The notes under the pieces were generated by a model, which had not been told where the DNA came from, did no database searches, and worked only from the letters and a program-made list of their open reading frames with translations. This document shows, piece after piece, positions 22,007-38,271 of a stretch of 44,564 bases of DNA. Every line of letters begins with the position of its first letter. The stretch's first letter is position 1. Position numbers and translations under genes: made by a program. Source of the stretch: Prochlorococcus sp. AG-436-E22 (lineage in GTDB: Bacteria > Cyanobacteriota > Cyanobacteriia > PCC-6307 > Cyanobiaceae); NCBI GenBank assembly GCA_003212615.1, contig QCPG01000008.1:1-44564 (forward strand), given 5' to 3'.

Positions 22007-22248
22007 TACTTTTTAATAAGTGCCTTGTAAAATAGTCTTATCTTATTATAAAAAATTTTGTATAGTAATCTTTAAATATTTAAAATTATTTGGAAATATA
22101 GTTAATTATTTTTTTTAAATATTATTTAAGACCAACCTTTTATTTTTATAGTATAAAATACATTTCTTGATAATAATATAGTAAAACAACTTTTATAGAA
22201 ATTATTATATCTTTGATTGCTAGTGAGGTGTACTTCAAGGTTCGGGAT

Positions 22249-22484: not shown

Positions 22485-22631
22485 TTATTTAAACCATCTA
22501 ATTTTGAAAACAAAATAACTCAAAGATAAAAAATTTTATCTTAATTTTTTAAGTAATTTTCAATAGAACTTTTAAAAAAAATAATATAATTTTAGTTATC
22601 CTAAAAATTAAAGACTAGATCTTAGAAATAC

Positions 22632-23054
22632 TTAATTAAAAGGTGTACTGTTATTAGTAGGAGCTATTAATAAGATTTCAAAAACTATCCCAGTTATGGC
22701 AATTGGTAAAACCCAAATACCAATAAATCTATGATCAAAAAATCTCAAATGATCATCACCCTTAAAAACATTCCTCAAAGCAGTAAATAGAGTTTCCGGT
22801 TGTTTATATGATGGACCATTTTCAGAGGGAGAATATGGTTTAACAAAAGCGGATGAGGAAGAAAACTTTGCAAACTTTCTAATGAAATAAATTGGCAAAA
22901 CCCATATAGCAACAAATCTTCCACCTAACCATTGCCTTGCATTAGGAAGGGCATACTCTTTTATAGATTTATTCTCTGGCATTCCAGATTCTAAATCTCT
23001 ATAAATATTTTCTAAAGTATCTTTTTTATTTAATTCATTAATCATTAAATTCAC
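22632..23054 (-). CDS. Hypothetical protein with two similar hydrophobic repeats
   Basis: Unrecognised 140-aa protein. Two related segments stand out: RQWLGGRFVAIWVLPIYFI at about residues 40-58 and LRFFDHRFIGIWVLPIAIT at about 103-121. Both share the pattern RF-hydrophobic-IWVLPI, so the protein looks like an internal duplication with two membrane-associated helices joined by a polar, proline-rich linker. It lacks the ExxNGR chlorophyll motif of high-light-inducible proteins. The start could be codon 1 (MNLMINELNKK) or the second Met. It stands alone between pseudogenes, with its own upstream region. Confidence 0.6.
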   Translation of the reverse strand: MNLMINELNKKDTLENIYRDLESGMPENKSIKEYALPNARQWLGGRFVAIWVLPIYFIRKFAKFSSSSAFVKPYSPSENGPSYKQPETLFTALRNVFKGDDHLRFFDHRFIGIWVLPIAITGIVFEILLIAPTNNSTPFN

Positions 23055-23284
23055 CTATAGATGAGATAAATTCTCTAAAAGTTAAATATTTTTGTTGGCT
23101 AGGTTCATAAAGACGGATTGTAAACCTTTGCAGATGCGCCAAATATCTACATATTCTTTATAAATAAAAAACTATTTTTTTTAAAGTAAATAATATACAA
23201 AGGCATAGATATTTTTTAATTCGAAGAGTTTATTTTTGATACTGGATTTTTACCTTATATTTTTTTCTTTTATAAAAATATTTA

Positions 23285-23323
23285 AACCTCATTTTCTAAG
23301 ATTGCGAAAAAGAAAATGAGGTT
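23285..23323 (-). terminator. Inverted repeat, candidate Rho-independent terminator
   Basis: Thirteen-base perfect arms (AACCTCATTTTCT at 23285-23297 and its complement at 23311-23323) with a 13-base loop. Read on the minus strand the hairpin is followed by TTTAAATATTTTTATAAAA, a moderately U-rich tail, so it can end transcripts coming from the formyltransferase gene. The plus strand side has no U run. Confidence 0.6.
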
Positions 23324-23338
23324 AAAGGGAGGTTCTTA

Positions 23339-23500
23339 TTACAAACCGTACTTATCAAAGCTAGCGGCTATATCTTCTTCTAAACTTATATTAACTGTAA
23401 TAGATAGGTTTAGTGATTGATTAAATTTTATCCAATTTTCACTTGATTTCGTTATTATCATTAATATTTAATCTTTTAAGCTAAAAATATATTTATTCAT
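23339..23500 (-). pseudogene. Decayed copy (copy A) of the GT-like gene found intact at 27400
   Basis: The start is kept: ATG at 23500 reads MNKYIFSLKD then stops, matching MNKYIFNSSDS of the intact gene. Further on, 23339-23461 reads KSSENWIKFNQSLNLSITV then NISLEEDIA, against KSEKYEKWMKANNNLSLSITI then NRTLEEDIA at residues 220-249 of the intact protein. The roughly 200 codons between are missing, and the C-terminus ends early. It begins 8 bp after the formyltransferase stop, the same order as in copy B. Confidence 0.8.
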
Positions 23501-23507
23501 ATAAAAA

Positions 23508-24230
23508 TTAGTTCTGAAACTTATATTGTTTTTTATTTACTTTATTTTTTACCATATCCAATGAATCTTCATCCATGGGTTTATAATATATTCCACCAGA
23601 TATAATTTCCCCTTTGTGTGAATCTTTTAATAAATTTGAAGGGGATTTAGCTATTTGCTCAATTAACTCTGCAAGAAGCTTAACTCCATCTTGATAGACT
23701 CTTTTTCTAATATCTTGATAATTATCTGACTTATAACATTCAGTTATTTTATGTTTAACAATAGGTCCAGAGTCAATCCCTTTGTTCATCCAATGGATTG
23801 AATTTCCTACAGGTTCATCTTGGAATATAGACCATTCAACACAAGAACATCCTTTGAAAAAAGGGAGTATTCCAGGATGACAATTTAAAATGCCAAAATT
23901 AGTTTCATCTATTATTTCTTGTTTAAGGATTCTTGGAGTTCCTCCATTTACTAAAAAGTCAATATCAAAATTTCTTATTATATTTAAGATTTCATTATTA
24001 TTATGACTTTCAACATCAAATATTTTTAAATGATAATTAATATTTTGAAAAAAATTTAGTTTATCTAATCTTTGTCCAGTTCTATCACAATATCTTTCAA
24101 TCTCTTCTTCTGATAGATTTTTTTTATCAAATATAATTGCTTTTGGTAAACTATCTCTAGACTTTAGTTCATTTAAAAAATATTCTAATAAAGGATGATT
24201 TCTTACAGAAAGTAGAGCATAATTTATCAT
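23508..24230 (-). CDS. Formyltransferase-fold enzyme (probable amino-sugar N-formyltransferase), copy A
   Basis: Enzyme of the Met-tRNA formyltransferase/GART fold, 240 aa, which usually transfers a formyl group from 10-formyl-tetrahydrofolate to an amino group. The active site is visible: N116-x-H118 in ILNCHPGILPFFKG and D153 in KGIDSGPIV, the N-H-D triad. It lacks the tRNA-binding C-domain of true Fmt, so an amino-sugar substrate is likely. It is the only intact formyltransferase of a duplicated module; its counterpart at 28371-28535 is a relic. The neighbours on both sides are remnants, so it is isolated within decayed DNA. Start ATG at 24230 (MINYALLSVRNHP). Fold sure, substrate inferred. 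Confidence 0.8.
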   Translation of the reverse strand: MINYALLSVRNHPLLEYFLNELKSRDSLPKAIIFDKKNLSEEEIERYCDRTGQRLDKLNFFQNINYHLKIFDVESHNNNEILNIIRNFDIDFLVNGGTPRILKQEIIDETNFGILNCHPGILPFFKGCSCVEWSIFQDEPVGNSIHWMNKGIDSGPIVKHKITECYKSDNYQDIRKRVYQDGVKLLAELIEQIAKSPSNLLKDSHKGEIISGGIYYKPMDEDSLDMVKNKVNKKQYKFQN

Positions 24231-24232
24231 TT

Positions 24233-24332
24233 TTATAATAAGTTAAGATTATCCCAGACTTTTTTAAATGCTTTAATCATCATTTCCATATCTTTATTTG
24301 AAAGCTAATTTATTGTTTTTGGTGAATTTCAT
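24233..24332 (-). pseudogene. Internally deleted copy (copy A) of the aminotransferase found intact at 28565
   Basis: The last 23 codons read LSNKDMEMMIKAFKKVWDN then LNLL and stop, against LSNHDIENMIKVFQKVWDN then LNLL in the intact gene. The start is apparently also kept: ATG at 24332 gives MKFTKNNKLA, against MNFNNKEKLA. The two ends are joined near 24304 at a short shared GCTT/CTTT, and about 390 codons in between are gone. The 3' match is strong; the 5' match is short. Confidence 0.8.
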
Positions 24333-24495
24333 AATTTAATCTTTATTTTATTTAATAAATTTGGAGTATCGAGGGCTTCTTCGCCATAACATAAGAAATT
24401 TTTTTTACCTCTTATAGCAAGATTAAATTACTCTGTAAAATAAAATTGTATACGAGTGAAATACAAATCTTTAGAACATCATAATTTATTGACAT
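24329..24495 (-). pseudogene. Decayed copy (copy A) of the Gfo/Idh oxidoreductase found intact at 29841
   Basis: The minus-strand reading gives RIQFYFTE, an in-frame TAA, then FNLAIRGKKNFLCYGEEALD and TPNLLNKIK, against RIQFYFTEQLNLAIKGQENF then LCNSQDAFDTQKVLQKIK in the intact protein. The start may survive as MSINYDVLK at 24495 (intact start MSAILKYSVV), but that match is short. About 265 codons are missing. Its TGA overlaps the ATG of the next relic. Confidence 0.8.
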
Positions 24496-24602
24496 TTAAC
24501 AAAAAATTTAAAGATTTTAAGTTTTTTTGGTTTCTATTTATAAAAAATGATTTATTAATTTAAAGATAACCTCTAAAATAACAGAAATAATATATTAACA
24601 GT

Positions 24603-25325
24603 ATGAATTATAGAGAAGAAAGTAATAAGAAAATTTTTCCTGCAAGAGAAGAAATAAAAAAATTGTTAAATGAAAACATTTTTGATTTTATTGATCATTT
24701 CCCCTTATTTGCAAGTCCTCAAACTATTTTGAGATTTTGTAAGATTTATGAATTAACTCTTGAGGCATTAAATATTCCAGGTGATTTTTGCGAATTTGGC
24801 ACCTGGAAAGGAGCTACAGCTCTATTTATGGCTAAATTAATAAATGAGTTAGAGCCTCAATCTAAAAGAAAAATTTTAGTATTTGATACCTTTTCAGGTT
24901 TACCCGATCCAGTTAATGAAGATGGTGATTATGCTAAAACTCAAATTGGAAGATATTTAGGGAATAAAAAATCTATGGAAGAAATGATCGACTTATACAA
25001 TTTGGAACATAGGTTAGAACTTATAGAAGGCGACGCATGCAATACAATTCCCGAATTTTTTACTGAGGATAATCCCGCTCTAGTAAGTTTGGCTTATTTT
25101 GATTTTGATTTATACGAACCTACTAAAATTGCTTATGAACATATTAAGTCTCGTTTATTAAAAGGGTCTTTACTCGTTTTTGATGAGGGTCTCGATAGGG
25201 ATTTATGGCCTGGTGAATGTAAAGTGGTTAAAGAAATATTGAATGATACTTTTTTAGAAAGAAAATTCTTATCAATTCCAAATAAAATTTCTAGACAACC
25301 AGAAATTATTCTCAAGTTACAATAA
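24603..25325 (+). CDS. TylF/MycF-like O-methyltransferase
   Basis: Putative SAM- and metal-dependent sugar O-methyltransferase, 240 aa, of the macrocin O-methyltransferase (TylF) family. Motifs: GDFCEFGTWKGATALFMAKL (SAM site), ILVFDTFSGLPDPVNEDGDY, ELIEGDACNTIPEF, LAYFDFDLYEPTKIAY (metal-binding acidic residues) and LLVFDEGLDRDLWPGE. Length fits the family. It and the next gene are on the plus strand, inserted between the two copies of the duplicated module. Likely to methylate a hydroxyl of a surface sugar; the position cannot be told. Confidence 0.85.
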   Translation: MNYREESNKKIFPAREEIKKLLNENIFDFIDHFPLFASPQTILRFCKIYELTLEALNIPGDFCEFGTWKGATALFMAKLINELEPQSKRKILVFDTFSGLPDPVNEDGDYAKTQIGRYLGNKKSMEEMIDLYNLEHRLELIEGDACNTIPEFFTEDNPALVSLAYFDFDLYEPTKIAYEHIKSRLLKGSLLVFDEGLDRDLWPGECKVVKEILNDTFLERKFLSIPNKISRQPEIILKLQ

Positions 25326-25426
25326 TTTTGTAATCTATAAATTATTGATATACCCTTTTATCGATATTCTTGTTTATTAACTTTTTAAGTATTTAATTTT
25401 GAGTAATTTTTATCGAATTTAAAATA

Positions 25427-27229
25427 ATGATTGTAATTGATAAAGTCAGCAGTAATTCTCTTTTTTTTATACTTCCTTTATTAAAATTTGGTATAAAAAT
25501 TTATTATCATGAAAAAAAAATAAAAAAAGATTATAAAAATTTGATACCACTTACATTTAAAAGAAGAAATCAAAAAAGTAAAAATCTATATAAGAAATGG
25601 AATGTTGGTGAATATAATTATTTTCAGGAATATACCTCAAGATACTTTAAAAGTAAATTTGATTCTTACTATAATGACCTTTTTAAAGATGTCAGTGATA
25701 CAAGAGATAAAATAAGAGCTGCTTTTATAAGAAGTTTAAATTTTCATGTAATTGGATCAATTAATATCAATTATGAAATATTCTTCAGAAATAAAGAGAA
25801 TAAAATTTTTATTTTACACACTAGTTTTCATGATTATATGTGTAAAGAAAATGGTTCTAATTTCAATGTAAAGTTGAGGCACTTTTATTTGCCTTGTGAT
25901 GTTCTTTCTGCAATTTTAAGCCTAAAAAGAATAAAAAAACTTCCTAATTTATTAAAATTATTTAGAAAGAATAAATATCAAAAGAAATTTAGCTCAAGCA
26001 ATAGTTCAGATCAAAAAAATATAGCTTTAATGATACACGAATCTATAAATTATGGAAAACTATATAGAAAAGATCACTATTTTTCAGATGATAAAAATAG
26101 TCCTTTAAATATAAACAATGTTTTAATTTACACTAATAATCAAAGTAATAATGAAAAATTAGATAACAACAAAGAACTAATAAAAATTAACAAAAGAATC
26201 AAAATAAATGTAATTATTCAAAGTTTAAATTTTATTTTATTAAATTTTTATAAAGCAAAAAATATTGATGAATTATATGGTTTGTTGTACTCAGCTTTTT
26301 TATTTATTAAATATAAAACCTGGTATGAATATTTTAAAGATAAAAATATTTCAAATTTTATATATGACTATGATGGTTTGTTTTCTAATTCTTTAGCTAT
26401 AGCTTTAGAATCATTGAAAATCAAAACAATTTGCTTCCAGGAGAGACCTGTTACCTCATGGTGGTGTAATTATGGAGCGATTGTAGATACTTATTTGATA
26501 GGTGGAAATTTATATAAAAATAACCTAAATAAAAACTTTACTATAATTAGTAAAAATTTAATTAATTTTGGAATGTGGAGAATTTCTTTTTTTTATAAAA
26601 AAGATTTAATAAAAATACAAGATACAAAATTTACATCAAATTCAACTTTATCAGTACATGATTTTAAAAAAAAGATTTTATTTTTAGGGTACTTTTCTAT
26701 CCCTCAGGATAATTTCCCCTCAACATGTCGAGAAGCCTTTAATGATTTTATGGAATATGTTTTTGAAGTCGCAGATGAATTTCCTAACTCTGCGATAATA
26801 ATCAGACTTAAAGCGTTAAGTAATATTGATAAGAACTTAGTTCTAAGAAAAATTTATGGAAAAAAAAATATATTTTTATCAATCGATTATGAAAATTTTC
26901 TAGTAAGTTATTCGTTATGTAAAGAAGTAGACTTAATTATTTCTGTGCCAACTTCATTAGCTGAAGAGTCTATTGCGTATGGCAAAAAGGTGATTTTTAT
27001 AAATAATCTTTTTCCTATAAATAATATATCAAAAGATACTTATCATCCTGAATTTTATTTCTGTATTCCAGAAAATTTAGAAGAAATTAAAGTACTTATA
27101 AGTAAATGTTTTAAGAATGATCAAGATATTTTGATTAAATACCAGACACTGAAGAAACTTCTTTCTGGATCAGTTGATTTTTCTAAACCAAATATAATTA
27201 GTAAAAAATTGGAAGAAATTTGCCATTAA
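25427..27229 (+). CDS. Large protein of unknown function, GT-B-like C-terminal region
   Basis: A 600-residue protein, extremely AT-rich and lysine/asparagine-rich, without a recognised family. A basic N-terminal region is followed by a variable middle. The last third has KILFLGYFSIPQDNFPS, AIIIRLKAL, YSLCKEVDLIISVPTSLAEE and SIAYGKKVIFINNLFP. That pattern of 'D-L-I-I-S-x-P-T-S-x-A-E-E' and 'G-K-K-V-I-F-I' recalls the donor half of GT-B glycosyltransferases and capsule synthesis proteins, so a surface-glycan transferase is plausible. No signal peptide. It follows the TylF-like gene by about 100 bp on the same strand and is probably part of the same unit. Confidence 0.65.
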   Translation: MIVIDKVSSNSLFFILPLLKFGIKIYYHEKKIKKDYKNLIPLTFKRRNQKSKNLYKKWNVGEYNYFQEYTSRYFKSKFDSYYNDLFKDVSDTRDKIRAAFIRSLNFHVIGSININYEIFFRNKENKIFILHTSFHDYMCKENGSNFNVKLRHFYLPCDVLSAILSLKRIKKLPNLLKLFRKNKYQKKFSSSNSSDQKNIALMIHESINYGKLYRKDHYFSDDKNSPLNINNVLIYTNNQSNNEKLDNNKELIKINKRIKINVIIQSLNFILLNFYKAKNIDELYGLLYSAFLFIKYKTWYEYFKDKNISNFIYDYDGLFSNSLAIALESLKIKTICFQERPVTSWWCNYGAIVDTYLIGGNLYKNNLNKNFTIISKNLINFGMWRISFFYKKDLIKIQDTKFTSNSTLSVHDFKKKILFLGYFSIPQDNFPSTCREAFNDFMEYVFEVADEFPNSAIIIRLKALSNIDKNLVLRKIYGKKNIFLSIDYENFLVSYSLCKEVDLIISVPTSLAEESIAYGKKVIFINNLFPINNISKDTYHPEFYFCIPENLEEIKVLISKCFKNDQDILIKYQTLKKLLSGSVDFSKPNIISKKLEEICH

Positions 27230-27399
27230 AAAATATTCTAATTATTTAAAATTTATAAATATTTTGAAATAATTAAAAATACCGTTTTGTAATAAATTTA
27301 GATTGGAATATTAAAGTTTTAAAAATGAAATAATCTATCTACTCTAAATATTAATCTATCCAATTCTATAAATTCCAAAAAATTTTTTTAAATTTATTC

Positions 27400-28302
27400 T
27401 TATAAAATATAATTAAAATCTCTGAGGTATTCAAGATTTTTAATCTTCAAGTTTGCATTTTTTTCTTTTGGTAGCTTTGATGAAATACATCTTTTAGATG
27501 ATGCACTAGCTACAACTAATGCAAAAGATTCATACCCTACTACAATGTCAGCCCAAGCAATATCTTCCTCTAAAGTTCTATTGATAGTGATAGATAAGCT
27601 CAAATTGTTATTAGCTTTCATCCATTTTTCATATTTTTCTGATTTTTCAGATGGATGAGGTCTTAGTCTTATTTTTAAATTATTCTTCGATTTTAAATTT
27701 TTAATTTTACTCAAGAAAAAATTTAATACTTCAAATTCGAATGGAGTTTTTTTGATTGATTTTTTTCTTATAGGCTCTAATACATAAAGTATGTTAGTTT
27801 CTGAGTTAAGTTTTACTTTCTCAATTTTTTTTATATTTCTTACAAGATTTTTCAAATAGAAATTTTCATAAGCTTCGATTTTAGTTTCTGTAAAAATATT
27901 TTTAGCAATTTTTTCAGCAAACTCATCAAAAACCCAAATAATATCTGGTAATACTTTTTTACATGCTCTAATAAATCTGTCCTCGTAGTTTACCCAATGA
28001 TCAATAACAGCGATGCTGATTATTTTATTTTTTTTTGCGTAAATACGTGCATTATGTTCAAGCATAGATTTATAACTTGTACCAGTAATAATTACACTTG
28101 AATTATTAATCGTTTCTTCTAAATCAAGATTTTCTTTGAAAAACATTTCATCTTGAAAAATCTTTATAGCTGGGCCACTTAAACAAAAATATAAATTTAG
28201 ATTTTTTTGTTCTTTAATCCAACCTAGTATTAAATTTGCTGCCCCTGCATCATTTGCAACTATACCAATAGAGTCAGAAGAATTAAAAATATATTTATTC
28301 AT
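27400..28302 (-). CDS. Putative GT-B-like surface polysaccharide protein (copy B, intact)
   Basis: 300-residue cytosolic protein of unknown exact role. It starts with a Rossmann-like strand (SIGIVANDAGAANLILGWI). In the C-terminal half it shows NILYVLEPIRKK, KIRLRPHPSEKSEKYEKWM and LEEDIAWADIVVGYESFAL, a pattern seen in GT-B transferases and polysialyltransferase-like proteins where the Arg/His loop and the acidic pair bind a nucleotide sugar. The decayed twin of this gene lies at 23339-23500. Start ATG at 28302. It is the last gene of the minus-strand nonulosonic-acid-type operon, separated from the aminotransferase by a formyltransferase relic. Confidence 0.65.
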   Translation of the reverse strand: MNKYIFNSSDSIGIVANDAGAANLILGWIKEQKNLNLYFCLSGPAIKIFQDEMFFKENLDLEETINNSSVIITGTSYKSMLEHNARIYAKKNKIISIAVIDHWVNYEDRFIRACKKVLPDIIWVFDEFAEKIAKNIFTETKIEAYENFYLKNLVRNIKKIEKVKLNSETNILYVLEPIRKKSIKKTPFEFEVLNFFLSKIKNLKSKNNLKIRLRPHPSEKSEKYEKWMKANNNLSLSITINRTLEEDIAWADIVVGYESFALVVASASSKRCISSKLPKEKNANLKIKNLEYLRDFNYIL

Positions 28303-28370
28303 ATGAAAAATAAATTTTTATTTATAATATATTTTATTTTTTATTTTGTTTTATTTTAAATTTAAAGATT

Positions 28371-28535
28371 ATTCATCGATTAGTTTGTAATAATTGCCGC
28401 TTGGCCTTGTTTATTTCTTTAAATAAATTTGAAGGCAATTTAGCTAATTGCTAAATAAATTCTGCAATAAGGGTAAATCGCTCAAGCTAAAATCTTATTC
28501 TAATATCTTGATAATTATTTAACTTAAAACACACA
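28371..28535 (-). pseudogene. Decayed copy (copy B) of the formyltransferase found intact at 23508
   Basis: The minus-strand reading is NNYQDIRIRF, a stop, LERFTLIAEFI, a stop, then QLAKLPSNLFKE, against NYQDIRKRVYQDGVKLLAEL then IEQIAKSPSNLLKD in the intact gene. A 20-base stretch (TCTAATATCTTGATAATTAT, plus strand) is identical at 28499 and 23706. The N-terminal 150 codons with the NxH active site are gone. The rest of 28303-28564 is AT-rich, with a possible worn start near 28555. Clear relic with several stops. Confidence 0.8.
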
Positions 28536-28564
28536 ATGATTTTATTTTTATGATTTAAAAATTT

Positions 28565-29851
28565 TCATAATAAGTTAAGATTATCCCAAACTTTTTGAAA
28601 GACTTTAATCATATTTTCTATATCATGATTTGAAAGTTCATATAAGCACATCTCAAAACCTATATAAGTTGAATCATGAAGTTTTTCTGCAACAGGGCAA
28701 ATACCTTTTTGATAGTTAATCTCTCTTCTGCATAAGTCAGATGTCCAAGGAAATCCTTTAGTACCATAAGCAATCTTTTTTTGATAAAGAGGCAGAAGAT
28801 GTAAATTGGCAAATCGTTTACTAAGGCCTTGAAGGCCTTCAGCTATTAAAGCATCAAATATTTTATCCCTTGATACGCCTGTTATATTTTCATCTATTTT
28901 CATGAAATACATGTAGTAGGAATGTGTGCACCCCATTTTTACTATAGGAGTTGTTAATCCTTTTAAATTCTTTAGAGATTGAGTAAGTTTTTCAGCAGCT
29001 TCTCTTCTTGTTTTTAGCAGATTATCTAATTTTTTAAGTTGTTCAATTCCAATAGAACATTCAATCTCCCCTAGGCGGAAATTATGTCCAATCATGTTAC
29101 TTAAGTTTTCTATTTTCATATCACCAACAGCAGCCTCTGCATGATTCCTAATTAGATACATTCTTTCAGCTAATTTATCATCATTAGTTACTAATATCCC
29201 ACCTTCTCCAGTATGTATATGTTTATGATAATTCAAACTATATCCTCCAATATCAGTTAGAGTCCCAGCAAATTTTCCATTATCCTTTGCACCAGGGGCT
29301 TGAGCTGTATCTGAAATTACTTTTAAATTATATTTCTTAGCAATTTTATTTATTTCGGTTGTGTTTGCTGGATGTCCACCAATATCAACACTAATAATTG
29401 CTTTAGTATATTTACTAATATTTTTTTCTATTGATTCCGGACTTATACAAAAGGTTTGATCTTCTATATCGGCAAAAACTGGAATAGCATTCCAGTGAAG
29501 AATAGCAGTTGCTGTTGCGCACATAGTCCAAGGTGGAACAATAACCTCATCACCAGGTTCTATACCTATAGCTCCTACAGCAGCTACTAAACCAGATGTC
29601 CAAGAATTAACGGTGATAGCATGTTTTACATTGAAGTATTCTTCACAATTTTTTTCAAATTCTTTAACCTTAGGCCCTCCAAAAAAATTTGGCCCCCATT
29701 TGCCTAAATAACCAGACAATACTCCACTTTCAATAACTAATTTTGCAGCCTCTAACTCTTCAGATCCAATTGAATTATACTTTTGAAAAGGTTTAAGAAT
29801 TGTTTTCTCGCCACCATTAATAGCTAATTTTTCTTTATTATTAAAGTTCAT
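28565..29851 (-). CDS. DegT/DnrJ/EryC1/StrS aminotransferase (copy B, intact)
   Basis: PLP-dependent sugar aminotransferase or related dehydratase, 428 aa, acting on keto-sugar nucleotides. Key sites are SWTSGLVAAVGAIGI, PPWTMCATATAILHW, VISDTAQAPGAKDNG (PLP-binding Asp181) and SLNYHKHIHTGEGG (Schiff-base Lys210). It overlaps the oxidoreductase gene by 11 bp. Gfo/Idh plus DegT pairs usually oxidise and then aminate a sugar, so a second amino group on the sugar is plausible. It is not closely similar to the PseC-type enzyme at 19667. The C-terminal end is duplicated in the relic at 24233-24332. Confidence 0.88.
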   Translation of the reverse strand: MNFNNKEKLAINGGEKTILKPFQKYNSIGSEELEAAKLVIESGVLSGYLGKWGPNFFGGPKVKEFEKNCEEYFNVKHAITVNSWTSGLVAAVGAIGIEPGDEVIVPPWTMCATATAILHWNAIPVFADIEDQTFCISPESIEKNISKYTKAIISVDIGGHPANTTEINKIAKKYNLKVISDTAQAPGAKDNGKFAGTLTDIGGYSLNYHKHIHTGEGGILVTNDDKLAERMYLIRNHAEAAVGDMKIENLSNMIGHNFRLGEIECSIGIEQLKKLDNLLKTRREAAEKLTQSLKNLKGLTTPIVKMGCTHSYYMYFMKIDENITGVSRDKIFDALIAEGLQGLSKRFANLHLLPLYQKKIAYGTKGFPWTSDLCRREINYQKGICPVAEKLHDSTYIGFEMCLYELSNHDIENMIKVFQKVWDNLNLL

Positions 29852-30818
29852 AATTGCTTTTTATTTTTTGTAATACCTTTTGGGTATCGAATGCATCTTG
29901 GCTATTACATAAGAAATTCTCTTGACCTTTTATAGCAAGATTAAGTTGTTCTGTAAAATAAAATTGAATACGATCAAAGTCATTTTTAATAATTTGAGCT
30001 TGTTTAGCTAAAACCTTATATCCTGAAAATCTTTTGTCATCTATAATAGGTTTCCAAAATATATCTTCGCCTCCATTCTCAAAATTTAATTTTCCATTTT
30101 CCATTATTAATTCAGCATCATTAAGGAAAATATTACTATTTTTATTTGATAAAAATATTATATTCCCTTCATCAAATCCTATTTCAAAATCTGGTTCAGG
30201 ATCTGATAAAGATTTATTTTTATTTATTAATTTTATATTTTTCACTTTCCCAAATAAAAATTCAAATAGATTTATAAAGTGTGATGAACTATTAAAAAGT
30301 CCTTTTGAGTAGATGCAAGTCCCTTGAAACGGAGTTCTAATTTCTTTTGAATTTATTAAAGATAAAATTTTTAAGTTACCGGGAAGAACTCTTCTGAAAT
30401 AATTTATAAATAATTTTGCATTATTAAACTTACATAACTCCAGTATTTTTTTACTTTCATTTATTTCATAAGAAAGAGGTTTCTCGCAGATAATTATTTT
30501 TGGGGTGTGGTATTTAAAAACTTCTTTTATATTTTCGAAATGCTTATTAGTTGGACTTGAAATAATAACTATATCTGGGCATAAATTAATCATTGCTTCT
30601 TTAATTTCACTAAAGCCATTGCATTTATATTTTTTTTTAAATGCATTAAGATTCTTTTCTTTTAAATCGACTCCTCCAATTAAATTAAAATTCTTATTAA
30701 TATGAAAAGATTTGGCATGTGTAAGTATTATTTCTTCTGAATGATTATCAAAATCATATTTCATCCCTATATTACCAAGACCGATTATAACAACTGAATA
30801 TTTTAAGATTGCCGACAT
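29841..30818 (-). CDS. Gfo/Idh/MocA family oxidoreductase (copy B, intact)
   Basis: NAD(P)-dependent sugar dehydrogenase, 325 aa. The N-terminal Rossmann fold has VVIIGLGNIGMKYDF, IVIISSPTNKHFENIKE and PKIIICEKPLS, with the conserved EKP lysine that sits near the substrate. The C-terminal half is divergent, without the common HxxD motif in clear form (SSSHFINLFEFLFG is the candidate), so catalysis may differ. It starts 18 bp after the PIG-L gene stop and overlaps the aminotransferase by 11 bp. A relic of a second copy lies at 24329-24495. Confidence 0.88.
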   Translation of the reverse strand: MSAILKYSVVIIGLGNIGMKYDFDNHSEEIILTHAKSFHINKNFNLIGGVDLKEKNLNAFKKKYKCNGFSEIKEAMINLCPDIVIISSPTNKHFENIKEVFKYHTPKIIICEKPLSYEINESKKILELCKFNNAKLFINYFRRVLPGNLKILSLINSKEIRTPFQGTCIYSKGLFNSSSHFINLFEFLFGKVKNIKLINKNKSLSDPEPDFEIGFDEGNIIFLSNKNSNIFLNDAELIMENGKLNFENGGEDIFWKPIIDDKRFSGYKVLAKQAQIIKNDFDRIQFYFTEQLNLAIKGQENFLCNSQDAFDTQKVLQKIKSNYEL

Positions 30819-30836
30819 TTTTTTGAATTTACCATC

Positions 30837-31529
30837 TTATGTAATTTTTCTTGAAATTATGAATGCTTCTGCATAATTTAAACCTGAAATACTTCCTCTC
30901 CACAATGCTAAGTTTTCTACGGCTTTTAAAGATCTTGGGTGAGGGAATACTCTTATTTCTTTCTCGTAACATTTTAGAGCATTTAATTTTTTATTAATAG
31001 TTTTAGATATATCAATGAAATAATTTGGCGAAAAAAGCTTTCCAGAATTTATTACCCATTCTGTGGAAGATGGAATTTCAAAAAAAAGAATTTCTTTGAC
31101 ACTTTGTCCAGGCAGTGGTCTGCAGGCGACTAAGGTCGCTTCATTAATTCTTCTATGATCTAAATTCAGATCACTATGATAATGAGTAAGAATTAATTCA
31201 GGCTTGTATCTTATTAATCTTTTTTCTATTTCTTTTATAAGATCTAGTAGGTCAATACTATCAAGTCTGTTGTCAGGATAATTAAGACTTTCGATAGTTT
31301 TAAATCCAAGAATTTTTCCTGCATTCTCTAATTCTTGATTTCTTTTTTTTATTAAAAAATTTGTTGATTCTATATTTTTTTCATTTAGCCTCGAGGATTC
31401 TCCATCTGCAATTACCAAAAGATGAACAGAGTGTCCTTCTTCAGTTAAACGTGCAATAAGACCTCCACAACCAAGTACCTCATCATCAGGATGGGCAACT
31501 ATTACTAATGTAGGGCCTTTATTTAACAT
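30837..31529 (-). CDS. PIG-L/LmbE family zinc deacetylase
   Basis: Zn-dependent N-deacetylase, 230 aa, of the GlcNAc-PI/LmbE family. The metal site is formed by AHPDDE (His13, Asp16) at the N-terminus and the histidine after TLTHYHSDLNLDHRRI-type sequence (LTHYHSDLNLDHRRINEA). In this context it probably removes an N-acetyl group from an amino sugar, freeing the amine for another acyl group; the intact formyltransferase would be a natural partner. Overlaps the IMPase-family gene by 11 bp upstream and precedes the oxidoreductase by 18 bp. Confidence 0.9.
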   Translation of the reverse strand: MLNKGPTLVIVAHPDDEVLGCGGLIARLTEEGHSVHLLVIADGESSRLNEKNIESTNFLIKKRNQELENAGKILGFKTIESLNYPDNRLDSIDLLDLIKEIEKRLIRYKPELILTHYHSDLNLDHRRINEATLVACRPLPGQSVKEILFFEIPSSTEWVINSGKLFSPNYFIDISKTINKKLNALKCYEKEIRVFPHPRSLKAVENLALWRGSISGLNYAEAFIISRKIT

Positions 31530-32313
31530 AACTTCTTAACTCTAATATATTCTCTACTAATTTATAATTTTCCATGGAATTTATTGCTATTATTCCCTCT
31601 TCTTTTGTTAGAGAAGTATTGTATTTTATTTTTTCCCCTTTGAAATCAAAAAGATAACCTCCAGATTCTCTTAAGAGTAAATCACCAGGAGCAAGATCCC
31701 AATCTTTTACAACGACATTTTTGATAAATAGATTGGCTTCACCACTTGCTATTAAACATATTTTAAGACCTAAACTACCTGATTCTAAATATTTTGAACA
31801 ATTTAATTTCTGAAATACCATTTTTGTAAAACCCTCTGGATTTGGATAATTATCAACAATTATTATATTTTTTGAATTATTCTTGATGCAAAGTTTTTTT
31901 CCATTAAGTCTGCCCCCTCTTCCCTTTGTTGCTGTATACATTCTCTTCAATTCTGGGCAATAAATGAAAGAATTTATAGGTTCATCTTTCTCTATAAGTG
32001 CTAATTGAATTACATAACCACTAAAGCCATTACAGTAACTTGCGGTGCCATCTATAGGATCAATTATCCAGTATATTTCTGATTTGTAAAATTTATGAGA
32101 ATTTAAATCCTCTTCACTGACTATAGGAATCCCTGGCTTGAGTTTGTAAAGACCATTTTTTAAAAGTTTTTCAGATATTAAATCAACTTCAGATTTATAT
32201 TGTGTTTTAACCCATAGACCATTATTTTGATAATTTTTTTTAAAATCTATTAAAACTTTGCCAATATCTTTTAGAAGTTTCTCTATCTTTTGGCATTCAT
32301 AGGTATTTAGCAA
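31519..32313 (-). CDS. Inositol monophosphatase/CysQ-like phosphatase
   Basis: Mg-dependent phosphatase, 264 aa, of the IMPase/FBPase/CysQ superfamily. Metal-binding motifs are present: PIVSEEDLN, WIIDPIDGTASYCNGF and VVKDWDLAPGDLLLRESGG. The substrate could be a sugar phosphate or 3',5'-bisphosphonucleotide; in the sugar operon a sugar 1- or 9-phosphate is more likely, but this is inferred. It starts at TTG 32313 (MLNTYECQKIEKLL), since no ATG gives a complete N-terminus. It overlaps the SDR gene by 17 bp and the PIG-L gene by 11 bp. Confidence 0.87.
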   Translation of the reverse strand: MLNTYECQKIEKLLKDIGKVLIDFKKNYQNNGLWVKTQYKSEVDLISEKLLKNGLYKLKPGIPIVSEEDLNSHKFYKSEIYWIIDPIDGTASYCNGFSGYVIQLALIEKDEPINSFIYCPELKRMYTATKGRGGRLNGKKLCIKNNSKNIIIVDNYPNPEGFTKMVFQKLNCSKYLESGSLGLKICLIASGEANLFIKNVVVKDWDLAPGDLLLRESGGYLFDFKGEKIKYNTSLTKEEGIIAINSMENYKLVENILELRSYVK

Positions 32314-33232
32314 AATAATTTATTTCCTTTTTTCTTAAATCAGTTTGTTCTATAACTTTATTCGCAAAGGTACAATCATAAAATGACTTAGGCTCTAATT
32401 TAATATATTTATAAATATTTGTTTTGGAAATATCCAAATTTTTTTCTTTCCAAAAGGGTTCTAAAATTAAAAATTCTGGTAAGTTTTCCTCTAGTTTTAT
32501 TTTAGGAATATCTATAAATTCAATTTCTCTATTTAAAGAGATTGCCATACTTTTAATAAGTTCTCTAGAAGTTAGACCATTATTTGGTAGAGCTTCCCAA
32601 ATATTTATAGGATATTTTTCACAAATGTTTATCCACTCTATAAAAGCGTTAGACAAATTATTTAAACAAGCTATTTGAACTTTATTATTGTGATCTTTTA
32701 TTTGAATTATAGGCTCATTGTCCATAATTCTTTCTATATAGAAATCTAATCTTCTTGTATGATCGCCATTGCCAAGGACAATTGGAAATCTTATAATTTT
32801 TGCATTAAAACCCCTTTCTATTAGTTTAAGAAGATGTTTTTCGCATTGATATTTACCTATTAAATATTTTTTGGTCACTTCAGATAAATGAAGATTGTTA
32901 TTGTTAATTAATTTAAATTCATCACCAACCTTACCCTCCCACAACCTTGTAATCCAAGTTGTAGATATTAAAATATATCTTTTTGAATTAATTTTATTAT
33001 AAATATTAGCTATATCTTTTTCTTCGTAAGCAATAAAATCAATAGTGAGGTCAAATTCCTTATCTTTTAGAGCATTAATACCATTATTTCTTTCCATATT
33101 TAAAAAAATTATCTTATTTTTTATTGAAAATTTTCTTCGAGAAATTACCCAAATTTCATTACTAGAATCTAATAAATTATTTAATATTTTCTTCCCAATG
33201 AATCTTGTTCCTCCCAATATTAAAATTCTCAC
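32297..33232 (-). CDS. Extended SDR family NAD(P)-dependent epimerase/dehydratase
   Basis: Sugar-nucleotide epimerase, dehydratase or reductase of the extended short-chain dehydrogenase family, 311 aa. The N-terminal GGTRFIGKKILNNLL is the nucleotide-binding loop, and ISTTWITRLW with YQCEK gives the Ser/Thr and YxxxK catalytic residues. The C-terminal part (NGDHTRRLDFYIERIM onward) resembles atypical SDRs that act on RNA or sugar substrates. The reaction is not determined. It begins 2 bp after the NeuB-family stop and overlaps the phosphatase gene by 17 bp. Confidence 0.82.
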   Translation of the reverse strand: MRILILGGTRFIGKKILNNLLDSSNEIWVISRRKFSIKNKIIFLNMERNNGINALKDKEFDLTIDFIAYEEKDIANIYNKINSKRYILISTTWITRLWEGKVGDEFKLINNNNLHLSEVTKKYLIGKYQCEKHLLKLIERGFNAKIIRFPIVLGNGDHTRRLDFYIERIMDNEPIIQIKDHNNKVQIACLNNLSNAFIEWINICEKYPINIWEALPNNGLTSRELIKSMAISLNREIEFIDIPKIKLEENLPEFLILEPFWKEKNLDISKTNIYKYIKLEPKSFYDCTFANKVIEQTDLRKKEINYFAKYL

Positions 33233-33234
33233 AA

Positions 33235-34311
33235 TTATCTATTTATATCTATCCAATTTAAAACATTACCTTTGGCAATATTTCTTTTTAATTTCTTACC
33301 AATAACCTCATCATATGCTGATGGAGGGATACCAGTTCCAGGTCTTACCAATGTTATATTATTTTCACTAATTAAATCTCCTTTTTTTAAGTCCCTTTTT
33401 GCTACAACGCTTTTTAAATAATCTTTTCTATTTTTAGCTTCTTTAATTGAAGGTGGTTTGAACTCTTTTTTATTTAAATCTTCATATAAGGTATTAATAG
33501 AGTCTACATAAATCTTCATTTGATTTGGCTCTAATGCAAAAGGATGATCTGGACCTTTTGAACAACGATTAAGAGTTACATGTTTTTCAAAAATACATGA
33601 TCCAAGAACCATTGCCAAAGAAGAACTAATTACATCATCAGAATGATCAGAAAAGCCAATTGGAATAGGGAAATTATTTTTTAAAAACTCTATATTTGAA
33701 AGTCTTAGTTCTTTTGTACTTGCAGGATAGATTGATACACAATGAAATGCCCCAATACCTGGGTTGTGATTTTTTAAGATTTCTAGTGCTTTTTTGATAT
33801 CATAAAATTCTGCCATTCCAAAGGAAATTAATATTGGTTGTTTTATATTATTTATAATATTTCTTAAAAAGGGAAAATTATTATGATCCATAGAAGCAAT
33901 TTTGATAAGGTCAAAATTTAAATCTTTTATCCAATTAATTCCATTTGATCCATGAATTGTAGTAGCACAATCAATCCCTAAATCATGGCATAATTCAATT
34001 AATTCAGGAAACCAATCTTTTGGGGTTTTAAGATATTTATCAAACATATCAATTGCAGGAATATTACCATAAAGATTTTCTAGCTTATAGTCTTTAGATG
34101 TTATGATTTCATTTACAATTTCATTCGCTTCATAGGTTTGAAACTTTGCACAATCAAAACCAGCTTTTGCTATTTCTTTAATTAGTTCTTTAGCAATATT
34201 TATATCCTGGTTATGGTTTGTTCCGATTTCTCCGATTAGATATGGTTTATGTAAATCTCCTATCTTTTTAGATTCTTTTAATTTAATTTCTGATCTAATT
34301 TTTTGATTCAT
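33235..34311 (-). CDS. N-acetylneuraminate/pseudaminate/legionaminate synthase-family enzyme
   Basis: NeuB-family enzyme condensing phosphoenolpyruvate with an amino sugar to a nine-carbon acidic sugar. The 358 residues give a TIM barrel (about 15-275) with YLIGEIGTNHNQDI, CAKFQTYEANEI, LIKIASMDHNNFPFL, HCVSIYPASTKELRL, IPIGFSDHSDD and IFEKHVTLNRCSKGPDHPFA. A C-terminal SAF (antifreeze-like) domain follows (KSVVAKRDLKKGDLIS to the end). Motifs alone do not separate NeuB, PseI and LegI. It lies 17 bp from the ATP-grasp gene and 2 bp from the SDR, in the operon core. Confidence 0.9.
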   Translation of the reverse strand: MNQKIRSEIKLKESKKIGDLHKPYLIGEIGTNHNQDINIAKELIKEIAKAGFDCAKFQTYEANEIVNEIITSKDYKLENLYGNIPAIDMFDKYLKTPKDWFPELIELCHDLGIDCATTIHGSNGINWIKDLNFDLIKIASMDHNNFPFLRNIINNIKQPILISFGMAEFYDIKKALEILKNHNPGIGAFHCVSIYPASTKELRLSNIEFLKNNFPIPIGFSDHSDDVISSSLAMVLGSCIFEKHVTLNRCSKGPDHPFALEPNQMKIYVDSINTLYEDLNKKEFKPPSIKEAKNRKDYLKSVVAKRDLKKGDLISENNITLVRPGTGIPPSAYDEVIGKKLKRNIAKGNVLNWIDINR

Positions 34312-34328
34312 AAAATTTAAATTTAGTT

Positions 34329-35267
34329 TTAGTTTTCTGATATTTCATTATACCAAAAACGTCTTAATGAAATTTTTGAATTATATTCAAAAGATTTTCT
34401 ATTAGGATTTATATTGTTATCTATATTAAGAAAATTACCTATAATATCTGCTCCCGCAGCAATTGATAAACAAGTTGTTGTTGATATCCTTGGGTTAATT
34501 TCAAAAGGCTTGATTAGGCCATTTTTATCTTTAATAAGTTGTATGTTATAGCAACCACCAACTTTATATGTATTATGTATTCTTTCGCAGCTTTCAATAA
34601 CATCTTTATCTTTTGATAAATCAGCTGATATCGTTATACCTTTTTTAAGTTTAACCTTAACAGGTATTATTGCTTTTAATTCTCCATTTTTGTCCGCAGA
34701 AATATTTACTGTAAACTCTTGTCCAGTGATATATTCTTGCAAAATAAATTCACTTCTTTTTTTTCGTGCAACAATTATTTGTGCATTTACTTCTTTTTCA
34801 TTATTAGCTAAAAAAACATTTCTTGATCCTCTTCCATAAATTGGTTTTACAATACAAGGAAATTTTAGAGATCCTAAGTCAGCCCTAATTACCTTAGGTG
34901 CAGGTAAATTTTTACTTATTAGGAATTGATTAGATTTTAATTTATTTAAATGAATTTTGATAAATTTTAAAGGAGGTAAAAGAACATTTATTGAAGGTTC
35001 ATTTTTTAAATTAGATAAAATAACTAATTCCTCATCTACGCCAGGAATAAGCAAGTCTATCTTATTATTAATGCAAATTTCCCGTACTTTTTCTTCAAAA
35101 TTAGATTCATTAGCTAGCGGAATAAGATGTTTTTTATTTAAAGGAATTTTGCTGTTAATTAATTCAATATTCGCATCACAAAAATGCATGTCATACTTTT
35201 TATTTAAAAGTCTGTAAAAAGCTTCATAACCTGCCCCGCCTGCCCCTGTAAATAAAACTTTTAACAT
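34329..35267 (-). CDS. ATP-grasp ligase, carbamoyl-phosphate-synthase-like
   Basis: ATP-dependent ligase joining a carboxylate to an amine or other nucleophile; 312 aa. VLFTGAGGAGYEAFY opens a pre-ATP-grasp fold. The ATP-grasp core has PCIVKPIYGRGSRNVF, FILQEYITGQEFTVNI and PFEINPRISTTTCLSIAAG (Mg ligands in E-x-N-P-R). It may add an amino acid or acyl group to the acidic sugar or its precursor. Its start shares one base with the PseG-fusion stop (TAATG at 35265-35269), so translation is coupled. Confidence 0.85.
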   Translation of the reverse strand: MLKVLFTGAGGAGYEAFYRLLNKKYDMHFCDANIELINSKIPLNKKHLIPLANESNFEEKVREICINNKIDLLIPGVDEELVILSNLKNEPSINVLLPPLKFIKIHLNKLKSNQFLISKNLPAPKVIRADLGSLKFPCIVKPIYGRGSRNVFLANNEKEVNAQIIVARKKRSEFILQEYITGQEFTVNISADKNGELKAIIPVKVKLKKGITISADLSKDKDVIESCERIHNTYKVGGCYNIQLIKDKNGLIKPFEINPRISTTTCLSIAAGADIIGNFLNIDNNINPNRKSFEYNSKISLRRFWYNEISEN

Positions 35268-37351
35268 TATGATTTTTTTTGTTTTTCAATAATAACTTTA
35301 TAACTAGTTCCATTAAGAGTAAAGAAACTGGGATATTTTTTAGAATCAGCTGTTCTCATTAGATTGAATTGACTCTTTATGGATTTATTTGGATCAATCT
35401 CACTATCTTGCGCATTTCTTTTTCTATAAAAACTCTCTTTTCCTAATTGTTTTTTTCGAACTAACTTACCATTTTTAAGATTTCTAATGAATTCAAAAAT
35501 TAATCCTTGAGTTTCACGTCCTTGTTTATACCTCAATTCATCGCATAATTCTGAGCCATCAAATTCTAATAAGGATTGTGCATAAATATCTCCACTATCT
35601 ACATTCTCTCTGGCTTCAAATAAGGTAATTGGAAATTTATTTTTACCTTCTATTATTTGCCAAGTTAATGGCGACCAACCCTTTCCTAAAGGTAGATTAC
35701 TTTCATGAATGACAAGATTATATTTATTAATATTTAAGGATTCTTTATCTACAATTTTTTCATAGCTTAAATAAAAACAAATATCAGATGGAGTAATATC
35801 TTCATGAGAATTAACCCATAAACAAATATATCCCTGATTAGTAAGCTCAATAATTAGTTCTGAAATAAAAATATTAATCCAGCTATTGCTATTGCTGCAG
35901 AAAGCAATTTTTAGATTCGATTCTTTTGATTTTTTTTCTGCTAAATTGGAAATTTCTTTTATTTTAAGCATTTTGGGGCTTGAATCTTTGTAGTAATTTA
36001 ATACAAGTGCTAAAATTTTGAATTTAAATCCTTCTTGATTAATAATCTTCGGAAAATAAAAACTTAATAATAAATAATCATTATTTAATTGGAAGTTTAT
36101 CCATGCTATTTTAAGCTTGCTTTTTTTTGTTTCAACAATGTAAGAATTATATTTCTCTAAATTTCTTAGATTGTTTTTATAATTTTTTATAAGGGTTTGA
36201 TTTTTAATATTTATTGATTTTATAAAATCAAAATCTTTGAGGTTAGAATCTCTAATATCGATACAATACTTTTTTTCGAGTAAAAGGTAATCAACTACTC
36301 TTATAGTTCCAAGACCATCGATAATTTTTTTACAATTAATTGATAATTTTTCATTTAATTTTAAATTTAATAATCTTGAAATCTCAATTTTTAATTTATC
36401 TTCAGTTATTTCCTCAGATCTACCAAGATATTTTATTATTTTTTTCTCTGATAAAATTTTAATTACATCTTCTTGATTCTTAGCTAATGAAATTACTGTG
36501 CTAGGTAATCCTAGGCAACACCTTTCAAGACAACTCATCCCCGCTCCGCCTATGGCATAGTCTGCTCGAGCAATAAAAGGTACTAGTGTTTTTTGATAAT
36601 TATATATTTTTATATTTTTAGAATGTTTTGTAATTTCTTGAATTTCTTTAAAATTTGGAGATTCTTTTTTTACTATTACTTCTATAAATATATTTTTGAT
36701 ATTAAGGCTAGTAAATGCTTTTAATGTCATTAAGGTCATACCTTCTAAATCTCCCCCTGCAAATGAAATAAGAATATTTTTTATTTTTCCTTTTCTATTT
36801 ATTATCTTTTTTTGAGTTTCATTATAAATTGAATCTAATAAAGCAAAATCTAATCCAAGTAATTGAATACAATTATTAGAAGTTAAGTTAATATATTTTT
36901 TTAAAATATCCTCTTTCCAATTATGATCTAGTAAAATATCACAATCATGTTTTCTATTTGCTAAGTCATCAATAACAAATATTTTTTTACAAAATTCTTT
37001 TACGATCTTTTCCCAATTAATGTCAAGATCATAATGATCGACAATGACGTATTCAGGTATTCTTTCTAAAAGTAAATTTATTGTTTCTTGCGCATCTGCT
37101 TCTAAGTTAATAATTTTCTCTCTTTTACACTTATCTATCTCAGCAATATTTTTTTCTTTATATAAATCTCTGCTAATTTTGCTTACTTTAAATCCATTTG
37201 ATATTATTTCTTCTATTGCGTTTCCTTCATAATCAACTGTAATAAATTCGCAAATTTCACCCCTATTTCTTAATTCTTTTGCTAGATATAAGCATCTTTT
37301 TATATGACCATCTCCAATCCATGATGATGAATCGCATCTGAAAATTATCAT
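35267..37351 (-). CDS. pseG: PseG-type UDP-sugar hydrolase fused to a formyltransferase-like domain
   Basis: A 694-residue fusion. Residues 1-358 match PseG, which releases a 2,4-diamino-trideoxyhexose from UDP: DSSSWIGDGHIKRCLYLA with His16, ILISFAGGDLEG and YAIGGAGMSCLERCCLGLP. Residues about 362-455 (IDIRDSNLKDFDFIKSIN onward) may be a worn GNAT/PseH-like domain; this is weak. Residues about 480-694 have the formyltransferase fold: LVIHESNLPLGKGWSP, TWQIIEGKNKFPITLFEARE and DSGDIYAQ. The triad keeps His549 and Asp585, but the expected Asn two before the His is Val547. So it may transfer something else, or be weak. It shares one base with the ATP-grasp start and follows the CMP-transferase by 3 bp. 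Confidence 0.85.
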   Translation of the reverse strand: MIIFRCDSSSWIGDGHIKRCLYLAKELRNRGEICEFITVDYEGNAIEEIISNGFKVSKISRDLYKEKNIAEIDKCKREKIINLEADAQETINLLLERIPEYVIVDHYDLDINWEKIVKEFCKKIFVIDDLANRKHDCDILLDHNWKEDILKKYINLTSNNCIQLLGLDFALLDSIYNETQKKIINRKGKIKNILISFAGGDLEGMTLMTLKAFTSLNIKNIFIEVIVKKESPNFKEIQEITKHSKNIKIYNYQKTLVPFIARADYAIGGAGMSCLERCCLGLPSTVISLAKNQEDVIKILSEKKIIKYLGRSEEITEDKLKIEISRLLNLKLNEKLSINCKKIIDGLGTIRVVDYLLLEKKYCIDIRDSNLKDFDFIKSINIKNQTLIKNYKNNLRNLEKYNSYIVETKKSKLKIAWINFQLNNDYLLLSFYFPKIINQEGFKFKILALVLNYYKDSSPKMLKIKEISNLAEKKSKESNLKIAFCSNSNSWINIFISELIIELTNQGYICLWVNSHEDITPSDICFYLSYEKIVDKESLNINKYNLVIHESNLPLGKGWSPLTWQIIEGKNKFPITLFEARENVDSGDIYAQSLLEFDGSELCDELRYKQGRETQGLIFEFIRNLKNGKLVRKKQLGKESFYRKRNAQDSEIDPNKSIKSQFNLMRTADSKKYPSFFTLNGTSYKVIIEKQKKS

Positions 37352-37354
37352 TTT

Positions 37355-38041
37355 CTAATAATTTATAACTTTAAACATTTTTTCCGCTCTAATCCAATCC
37401 TCTTCATTATCAATATCTTGTACCTTATATCTAGGAATAATAATGGGACAGGAATGTTCTGCAAAAAATATATCTTCGTTAATCCATGAAGAGGCTTTCC
37501 CCCAATAAAATTGACCTGCGTCATGAAAAGTTTCTTCTAAATCTTGAGATCTTTTATTGAAATTTTCTGGATTCAGCATTTCTACACGATTTAATTTGCT
37601 AATTTTGATTGCTCGTTGAATTGGGAAAGGAAAAGATGTTACAGAGAAAGTATAATTTACATCGTTATTAATCAATTTATCATAACCTTCTATTAAATAA
37701 CTTGGTTCTACAAAAGGGGCAGTTGCATATAAACAACATACATATTCAACTCTATTAATATTTTTATTAACCCAATTTATTGTATGTTTAATAACTGGAA
37801 TTGTACCTGTGAAATCATCGGATAATGATTTGGGTCTTAAAAAAGGAATCTCTGCTCCATATTTTTGTGAAATCTTTGATATTTCTTTGTCATCAGTAGA
37901 TACTATTATTTTATCAAATATATTACTTGAAATTGCTGCTTTGATTGACCAGGATATCATAGGTTCACCACAAAATAATCTTATATTTTTTCTTGGAATT
38001 CTTTTACTACCGCCTCTAGCTGGTATAACGCAAATTTTCAT
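37355..38041 (-). CDS. Acylneuraminate cytidylyltransferase (NeuA/PseF family)
   Basis: CMP-sugar synthetase that activates the nonulosonic acid with CTP, 228 aa. ICVIPARGGSKRIPRKNI is the CTP-binding loop, followed by IIVSTDDKEI, PFLRPKSLSDDFTGT, LYATAPFVEPSYLIEG, FHDAGQFYWGKA and a C-terminal DIDNEEDWIRAE with the metal-binding aspartate. The DAGQFYWGK form is typical of PseF in my experience. Start chosen at ATG 38041 (MKICVIPARGG); a TTG at 38062 would add seven residues. First gene of the operon, divergent from the plus-strand gene at 38272. Confidence 0.92.
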   Translation of the reverse strand: MKICVIPARGGSKRIPRKNIRLFCGEPMISWSIKAAISSNIFDKIIVSTDDKEISKISQKYGAEIPFLRPKSLSDDFTGTIPVIKHTINWVNKNINRVEYVCCLYATAPFVEPSYLIEGYDKLINNDVNYTFSVTSFPFPIQRAIKISKLNRVEMLNPENFNKRSQDLEETFHDAGQFYWGKASSWINEDIFFAEHSCPIIIPRYKVQDIDNEEDWIRAEKMFKVINY

Positions 38042-38271
38042 TAAGAGTAATTTTAATTCCAATAATCATAATTATAGTTGATAAATTAAACCTAATTTAA
38101 AAAATATCAAAGTTGAAAAAATAGTTCTTTAATACTTAAGAAGTCTTCTAAATAATTTAAAATATTAAATGTAATTTATTTAAGATTTTCTTTGATAGTT
38201 GATTAAGTTCAATTAGAAATTTATCTAAAATAAGTTAGTATAAAATTAAATAGTTGTGAAATATTTATTTA

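Follow-up and report, generated by a model that had tools for sequence, protein, structure and literature searches.

Likely complementary decay of two copies of a four-gene sugar module in a surface-glycan region of Prochlorococcus

Introduction

What becomes of a bacterial sugar pathway when two related sets of its genes lie close together on one chromosome? The question is raised by contig QCPG01000008.1 of Prochlorococcus sp. AG-436-E22 (assembly GCA_003212615.1), whose 44,564 nucleotides are referred to here as the window. On its minus strand two segments, copy B and, about 3 kb further along, copy A, hold the same four genes in the same order: a Gfo/Idh/MocA oxidoreductase (Gfo), a DegT aminotransferase (DegT), a formyltransferase, and a gene for a 300-residue protein with a glycosyltransferase-B (GT-B) fold. 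Our results show that several genes are present in two homologous colinear copies and that, in this assembly, each is intact in one copy only and decayed in the other. We consider it very likely that this reflects complementary decay of two copies of one module. An earlier interpretation of the window from its letters alone (the sequence-only reading) had proposed reciprocal loss after segmental duplication and had named, as another possibility, a mosaic left by the recombination of another cell's related cluster into this site.

The window lies in a surface-glycan region, in which PseG-, PseF-type and NeuB-like genes are present beside the core genes for a carbamoyltransferase, LexA and FtsH. 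It would correspond to genomic island 4 (ISL4) of Prochlorococcus, the gene content of which is described as highly variable in the available text of PMC7522525. The available text of PMC3782348 cites work that mapped phage resistance of Prochlorococcus isolates to island 4, there called O-chain synthesis, and in these portions of the two sources such islands appear as highly variable and phage-related.

Results

The comparison of 23300-24520 with 27350-30830 by BLASTN gave four colinear matches on the same strand (280 columns at 72% identity, E 2e-38; 153 at 79%, 5e-33; 84 at 85%, 4e-22; 77 at 74%, 2e-7), all further matches having E values of at least 0.012. With TBLASTN, the intact proteins of copy B found their counterparts in copy A over Gfo residues 281-320 (E 9e-14), DegT residues 406-428 (1.5e-8) and residues 225-249 of the GT-B protein (1.9e-7; the start-codon piece by itself reached only 0.002), and the formyltransferase of copy A found its residues 159-236, with stops and a frameshift, in copy B (5e-12). 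The best scores for Gfo, DegT, the GT-B protein and the formyltransferase were 55.5, 40.8, 37.0 and 49.3 bits, against maxima of 24.6, 21.9, 28.5 and 22.3 bits in first-order Markov shuffles (200 per gene, none of which equalled the observed score), and chance likeness in AT-rich DNA is ruled out by this control. These four ordered matches, with all four genes recovered at the protein level, bear out two claims of the sequence-only reading, namely that the copies are colinear on one strand and that copy A keeps the formyltransferase and relics of the other three genes while copy B shows the converse. The residue matches that it had pointed to (QKVWDNLNLL/KKVWDNLNLL, and RIQFYFTE in both copies) were found as described, and the alignment refined its bounds for copy A from 23339-24495 to 23366-24460 (Table 1). 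Beyond the module edges the similarity ends. Matches of 11-52 bases in the flanks (E 4e-4 to 0.3) are typical of AT-rich sequence and were excluded from the homology.

Table 1. Positions of the two module copies and of neighbouring genes in the window
Feature	Position	Strand	Remarks
Copy A, whole	23366-24460	-	homology begins at 24460
Copy A, relic of Gfo/Idh/MocA oxidoreductase	24341..24460	-	codons 281-320, one internal stop; 62.5% amino acid and 80% DNA identity to B
Copy A, relic of DegT aminotransferase	24233..24332	-	last 23 codons, directly preceded by about 10 from the N-terminus
Copy A, intact formyltransferase, 240 aa	23508..24230	-	Pfam PF00551, E 1.1e-17
Copy A, relic of GT-B-fold gene	23366..23500	-	start-codon region and codons 225-249; C-terminus gone
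Copy B, whole	27400-30818	-	same gene order as A
Copy B, intact 300-aa GT-B-fold protein, probable glycosyltransferase	27400..28302	-	AlphaFold predicted local distance difference test (pLDDT) 81.7
Copy B, relic of formyltransferase	28327..28549	-	codons 159-236 with a frameshift and several stops
Copy B, intact DegT aminotransferase, 428 aa	28565..29851	-	Pfam PF01041, E 2e-88
Copy B, intact Gfo/Idh/MocA oxidoreductase, 325 aa	29841..30818	-	Pfam PF01408, E 4e-14
TylF-type O-methyltransferase, between the copies	24603..25325	+	Pfam PF05711, E 1.9e-16
600-aa protein, between the copies	25427..27229	+	without Pfam match
Nonulosonic-acid-type genes	30837..38062	-	PIG-L deacetylase, inositol-phosphatase-like, epimerase, NeuB, ATP-grasp, PseG-formyltransferase fusion, PseF

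Deletion appears to have done much of the work of decay, because the lost stretches are for the most part absent altogether and not mutated. Relative to copy B, the DegT gene of copy A has an internal deletion of about 1.2 kb, its N-terminal codons running from 24332, with the dinucleotide CT at the joint common to both ends in the gene of B. The GT-B-fold gene of A has lost its middle and its last 51 codons, and the formyltransferase of B has lost codons 1 to about 158, stops and a frameshift marking the remainder. Remnants of other genes were sought in eight spacers (19311-19666, 22007-22631, 23055-23365, 24461-24602, 25326-25426, 27230-27399, 28303-28402 and 38063-38271), and besides the known formyltransferase relic only weak matches appeared (E 6e-4 to 0.009). 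If four redundant genes each lose one copy independently, 14 of the 16 outcomes leave the survivors split over both sites; the pattern is thus as redundancy predicts, and no special mechanism is needed.

The statement that exactly one working copy of each gene remains holds for the module in this assembly. We limit it in this way because the genome is incomplete (60 contigs, 1.02 Mb, 66.5% complete, listed contamination 0.02) and other formyltransferase-family genes are present in it: a 30% identical relative on contig 2, a 27% identical one on contig 1, which is probably a housekeeping enzyme, and a domain at 35267-37351. The contig 2 relative (L064, 18346-19089) is an intact second formyltransferase that lies by a 365-aa gene, near housekeeping-looking genes where the contig ends; 35267-37351 encodes a 694-aa protein in which a PseG-like hydrolase is fused to a formyltransferase domain at the C-terminus.

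How close are the two copies to each other, compared with other genomes? The genus search covered 266 genomes, our own included, with all four proteins, and the family search covered, with two of them, 400 family genomes taken from a larger group. In the Gfo segment, A and B agree at 96 of 120 bases, and the best match to any other genome compared, which is to G004 for both copies, reaches 79 bases for A and 83 for B; in the DegT relic they share 60 of 69 bases, against at most 46 to any other genome compared, and for the GT-B-fold gene the corresponding figures are 53 of 75 and no more than 38. These base comparisons omitted homologues below about 30% identity to B (5 of 12 for Gfo, 1 of 17 for DegT, 1 of 10 for the GT-B-fold gene). 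The formyltransferase relic agrees with A at 25 of 50 residues and with seven other sequences at no more than 14 of 50, A itself reaching at most 17 of 50 with those seven. In every relic, A and B are mutual best matches among the homologues compared, and because they match each other better than any of these, they derive, as judged by sequence, from one ancestral Gfo-DegT-formyltransferase-GT module.

The individual genes are unevenly distributed. Counting our own genome, Gfo has matches in 5 of the 266 genomes at 1e-20, DegT in 10 at 1e-60 and the GT-B-fold gene in 8 at 1e-3, G004 being the nearest genome of the genus for both Gfo (59%) and DegT (77%). The formyltransferase finds matches in 259 of 266 at 1e-3, those listed being mostly 26-35% identical and probably other formyltransferases; its best match outside our genome is in G109 (E 1.9e-41, 40%), the next has an E value of 5.6e-20, and at 1e-22 only 2 of the 400 family genomes match, one of them our own. 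Two weak matches of the GT-B-fold gene, L040 1501-1677 with four stops and L041 1501-1725 with six, in genomes G166 and G080, are possible further relics.

A strain with one unbroken module was found nowhere among the Prochlorococcus-group genomes searched, nor were the four genes found together in the loci fetched in 17 other same-family genomes. The orders seen there are Gfo-DegT-GT (G030, G113, G321) and GT-Gfo-DegT (G043, G324, G316, G493), with others further apart or partial, and in none of the 17 does the module's formyltransferase lie between DegT and GT; in G229 and G109 the order is only partly visible, because contigs end beside the genes. A first scan of genome contigs found no relatives. 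A second contig scan, which used two peptide patterns besides a formyltransferase alignment, gave 18 loci, one being G109's own contig. DegT is directly followed by the formyltransferase in 4 of the 18, three from SAR11 (L086, L087, L088) and one from a Peribacterales metagenome-assembled genome (L089). The latter carries all four genes intact and in the same order at 524-4494, with 25-41% identity, the only one of the 18 loci to do so; L088 has Gfo upstream, giving Gfo-DegT-formyltransferase, and a different gene downstream, and the contigs of L086 and L087 start just before DegT, so that the Gfo region is outside view. The remaining 14 loci have the genes apart, in another order, missing, or truncated where a contig ends. 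The arrangement ancestral to A and B is therefore that of a real module found elsewhere, and L089 suggests that the module is widely spread; the order shared with L088 and L089 also counts against the notion that the two copies arose separately with different gene content. Scans of IMG/VR with the formyltransferase, GT and DegT proteins and with the formyltransferase alignment, which reach mainly close relatives, found none, and phage records gave 25 matches, the ten listed having 23-29% identity.

What would the module make? No module protein reaches an NCBIfam cut-off. The matches of DegT in the PDB are sugar aminotransferases, perosamine synthetase being the best; WbpE and a KdnA-type 8-amino-3,8-dideoxy-octulosonate transaminase rank lower. 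For Gfo the PDB gave just three matches, all of them weak. The formyltransferase matches 10-formyltetrahydrofolate dehydrogenase best and then PseJ, and its residues N116, H118 and D153 are invariant in eight aligned sequences, itself included. They fall on the Asn-x-His and Asp that we take to be the catalytic residues of the Formyl_trans_N domain, and by domain and residues the protein is a predicted sugar N-formyltransferase, which would use a nucleotide-linked amino sugar as its substrate. By sequence, the 300-aa protein matches nothing in the PDB or in Pfam. The AlphaFold model has a GT-B fold, and the 50 structural matches listed are GT-B-type enzymes with Z scores of 14.4-16.5 and include epimerases, MurG and a polysialyltransferase, UDP-GlcNAc 2-epimerase having the best (16.5) and the polysialyltransferase 5wc6 reaching 15.1. 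An HP pair at 216-217, invariant in seven sequences, may correspond to the HP motif of polysialyltransferase-like nonulosonic acid transferases. We call the protein only a probable glycosyltransferase, because the polysialyltransferase match does not rise above the epimerases and MurG.

Judging from these families, Gfo would oxidise a hydroxyl, DegT would aminate the product, the formyltransferase would N-formylate it and the GT-B protein would transfer the sugar, and this is the likeliest predicted sequence. The product may feed the neighbouring nonulosonic-acid-type surface glycan genes, and the surviving genes probably still act as one predicted pathway.

Discussion

In this work we have compared two related module copies that together hold one intact version of each gene. 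We slightly favour the arrival of an already diverged cassette over a duplication in place, and give it an even chance. In this scenario the second copy would have come by recombination with another cell's DNA into the surface-polysaccharide island, and the TylF/600-aa pair that separates the copies would have come with it or later. Each gene would have been redundant while both copies were present; deletions and point mutations then removed the formyltransferase from B and the other three genes from A, a decay visible in the relics, and selection would have kept one intact version of each gene.

The divergence and the edges of the copies bear on this choice. Relics are 68% to 87% identical to their partners, a divergence of 13-32%, and the similarity is confined to the module. 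A duplication of a larger unit that included TylF and the 600-aa gene was rejected for lack of a second copy in neighbouring DNA: TBLASTN of the two proteins against 20000-24600 gave only E values of at least 0.28, and BLASTN of the intervening segment against 18000-24602 and 27230-36000 gave short matches only, TylF not having been sought in the rest of the genome. The 600-aa protein occurs once, in our own genome, among 129 searched. Differences between relics and partners are uneven over codon positions (37/24/53 over 162 codons, p 0.004), with an excess at third positions, and in a rate model the best fit (lnL, the log-likelihood, -257.8) has the relics under constraint for about half of the divergence; very late decay also comes near it (lnL -259.95). 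The relic pieces are those that BLAST still finds, with a bias towards conserved stretches, and the divergence among relics, which differs with a chi-square p of 0.054, was not used. Extended direct repeats that are identical and lie near each other seldom survive until they differ by as much as 13-32%, and it is this consideration that, as a tie-breaker, makes arrival slightly likelier.

Several observations weigh against this account. Decay from the start is not rejected by the codon-position fit (lnL -259.2 against -257.8), and the model drew its rates from just two of the four genes, DegT and Gfo. When the changes are polarised with G004 as outgroup, few of them fall on the relic branch, and their flat distribution (4/4/5) is what early decay would give; the intact branch has 5/1/5, and nine changes are unassigned. 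Intactness was judged from reading frame and conserved residues only. Finally, the genomes searched yielded no strain carrying only an A-type or only a B-type module, which would have shown arrival.

Could the module instead have been duplicated in tandem, its copies diverging in the same lineage and losing genes reciprocally before the TylF/600-aa pair was inserted between them? We regard this as a possible course, somewhat short of even. It agrees with A and B being, for all four genes, nearer to each other than to any further homologue in the comparison, with their same orientation and order, with the codon fit, which does not reject immediate decay, and with the similar branches of the outgroup polarisation (13 against 11 changes, nine unassigned). 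However, it needs a separate insertion, as the two genes between the copies are not repeated in the neighbouring DNA, and adjacent identical direct repeats of several kb are usually lost or homogenised through recombination, which makes a divergence of 13-32% harder to reach. Of the explanation offered by the sequence-only reading, then, the complementary losses stand, through colinearity, mutual closeness, stops and large deletions; segmental duplication would be one possible cause, the similarity being limited to the module and the two genes in between lacking a second copy in neighbouring DNA. Its alternative, recombination of a related cluster from another cell, fits at least as well.

Chimeras occur in single-cell genomes, and a contig that joined DNA of two cells or strains during amplification or assembly would be conceivable in an unfinished, incomplete genome such as this one. 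We consider it improbable: each copy has its own stops or deletions, and hence each decayed copy is real DNA, both lie on one contig in an assembly with little listed contamination, and the edges of A share only short AT-rich matches with the B side. That A and B are two unrelated sugar clusters which merely share common enzyme families can practically be set aside, for even though formyltransferase-domain genes are found in nearly all genomes of the genus and DegT and Gfo families in several fetched loci, the colinear nucleotide matches run through gene borders and the A-B similarity is well above that to any other genome compared.

How does the locus relate to known systems? Reciprocal loss of duplicated genes is best described after whole-genome duplication in eukaryotes. 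As there, redundant copies have lost different members and one complete set is spread over two sites; here, in contrast, a single operon segment of a bacterium is concerned, and its second copy may stem from acquisition instead of duplication. The module also resembles Gfo-DegT-acyltransferase sugar pathways (of the WbpB/WbpE/WbpD and GnnA/GnnB type) in its dehydrogenase, pyridoxal-phosphate aminotransferase and N-acylation by family, with WbpE among the DegT matches, but it is predicted to transfer formyl and not acetyl. With ISL4 the locus would share a setting among highly variable surface-polysaccharide genes, whereas complementary relics of one module are not described in the available text of PMC7522525 and PMC3782348. 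In the literature searched, where subscription papers are thinly covered, we found no account of this locus or of complementary loss within one bacterial cluster.

The locus illustrates well a process that is known in kind; it is a clear fossil of surface-island turnover and no new type of system. It records in readable form how a surface-sugar island changes in a very abundant ocean phototroph, two related cassettes coexisting and decaying to one set. A more far-reaching reading, for which we see limited likelihood, is that two diverged versions of a glycan module met in one cell and were whittled to a hybrid pathway, the formyltransferase coming from one lineage and the other three genes from another. 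If such a pathway had been fixed in this way, phage-facing sugars would be remodelled by complementary decay besides whole-cassette swaps. Since each site lacks part of the set, swapping one of the halves with another strain would disrupt the pathway, and complementary decay would thus hold a new surface-sugar variant together and restrict later exchange of cassettes. The evidence establishes the pattern, not its frequency or effect.

Other features of the window

Among the nonulosonic-acid-type genes of Table 1, PseG and PseF passed the NCBIfam cut-offs, which NeuB/PseI missed. Scans for promoters and terminators found sites no more often than in shuffled sequence. Directly past copy A, 23285-23323 holds a perfect 13-bp inverted repeat with a 13-base loop, a possible terminator with only one exact occurrence in the assembly; the terminator scan, which allowed loops of 3-8, did not list it. 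An open reading frame at 22632-23054 (140 aa, without Pfam match) contains the internal repeat RFVAIWVLPI / RFIGIWVLPI. On the plus strand, two adjacent open reading frames, 38272-39108 and 39096-39929, encode 278 and 277 aa, neither with a Pfam match.

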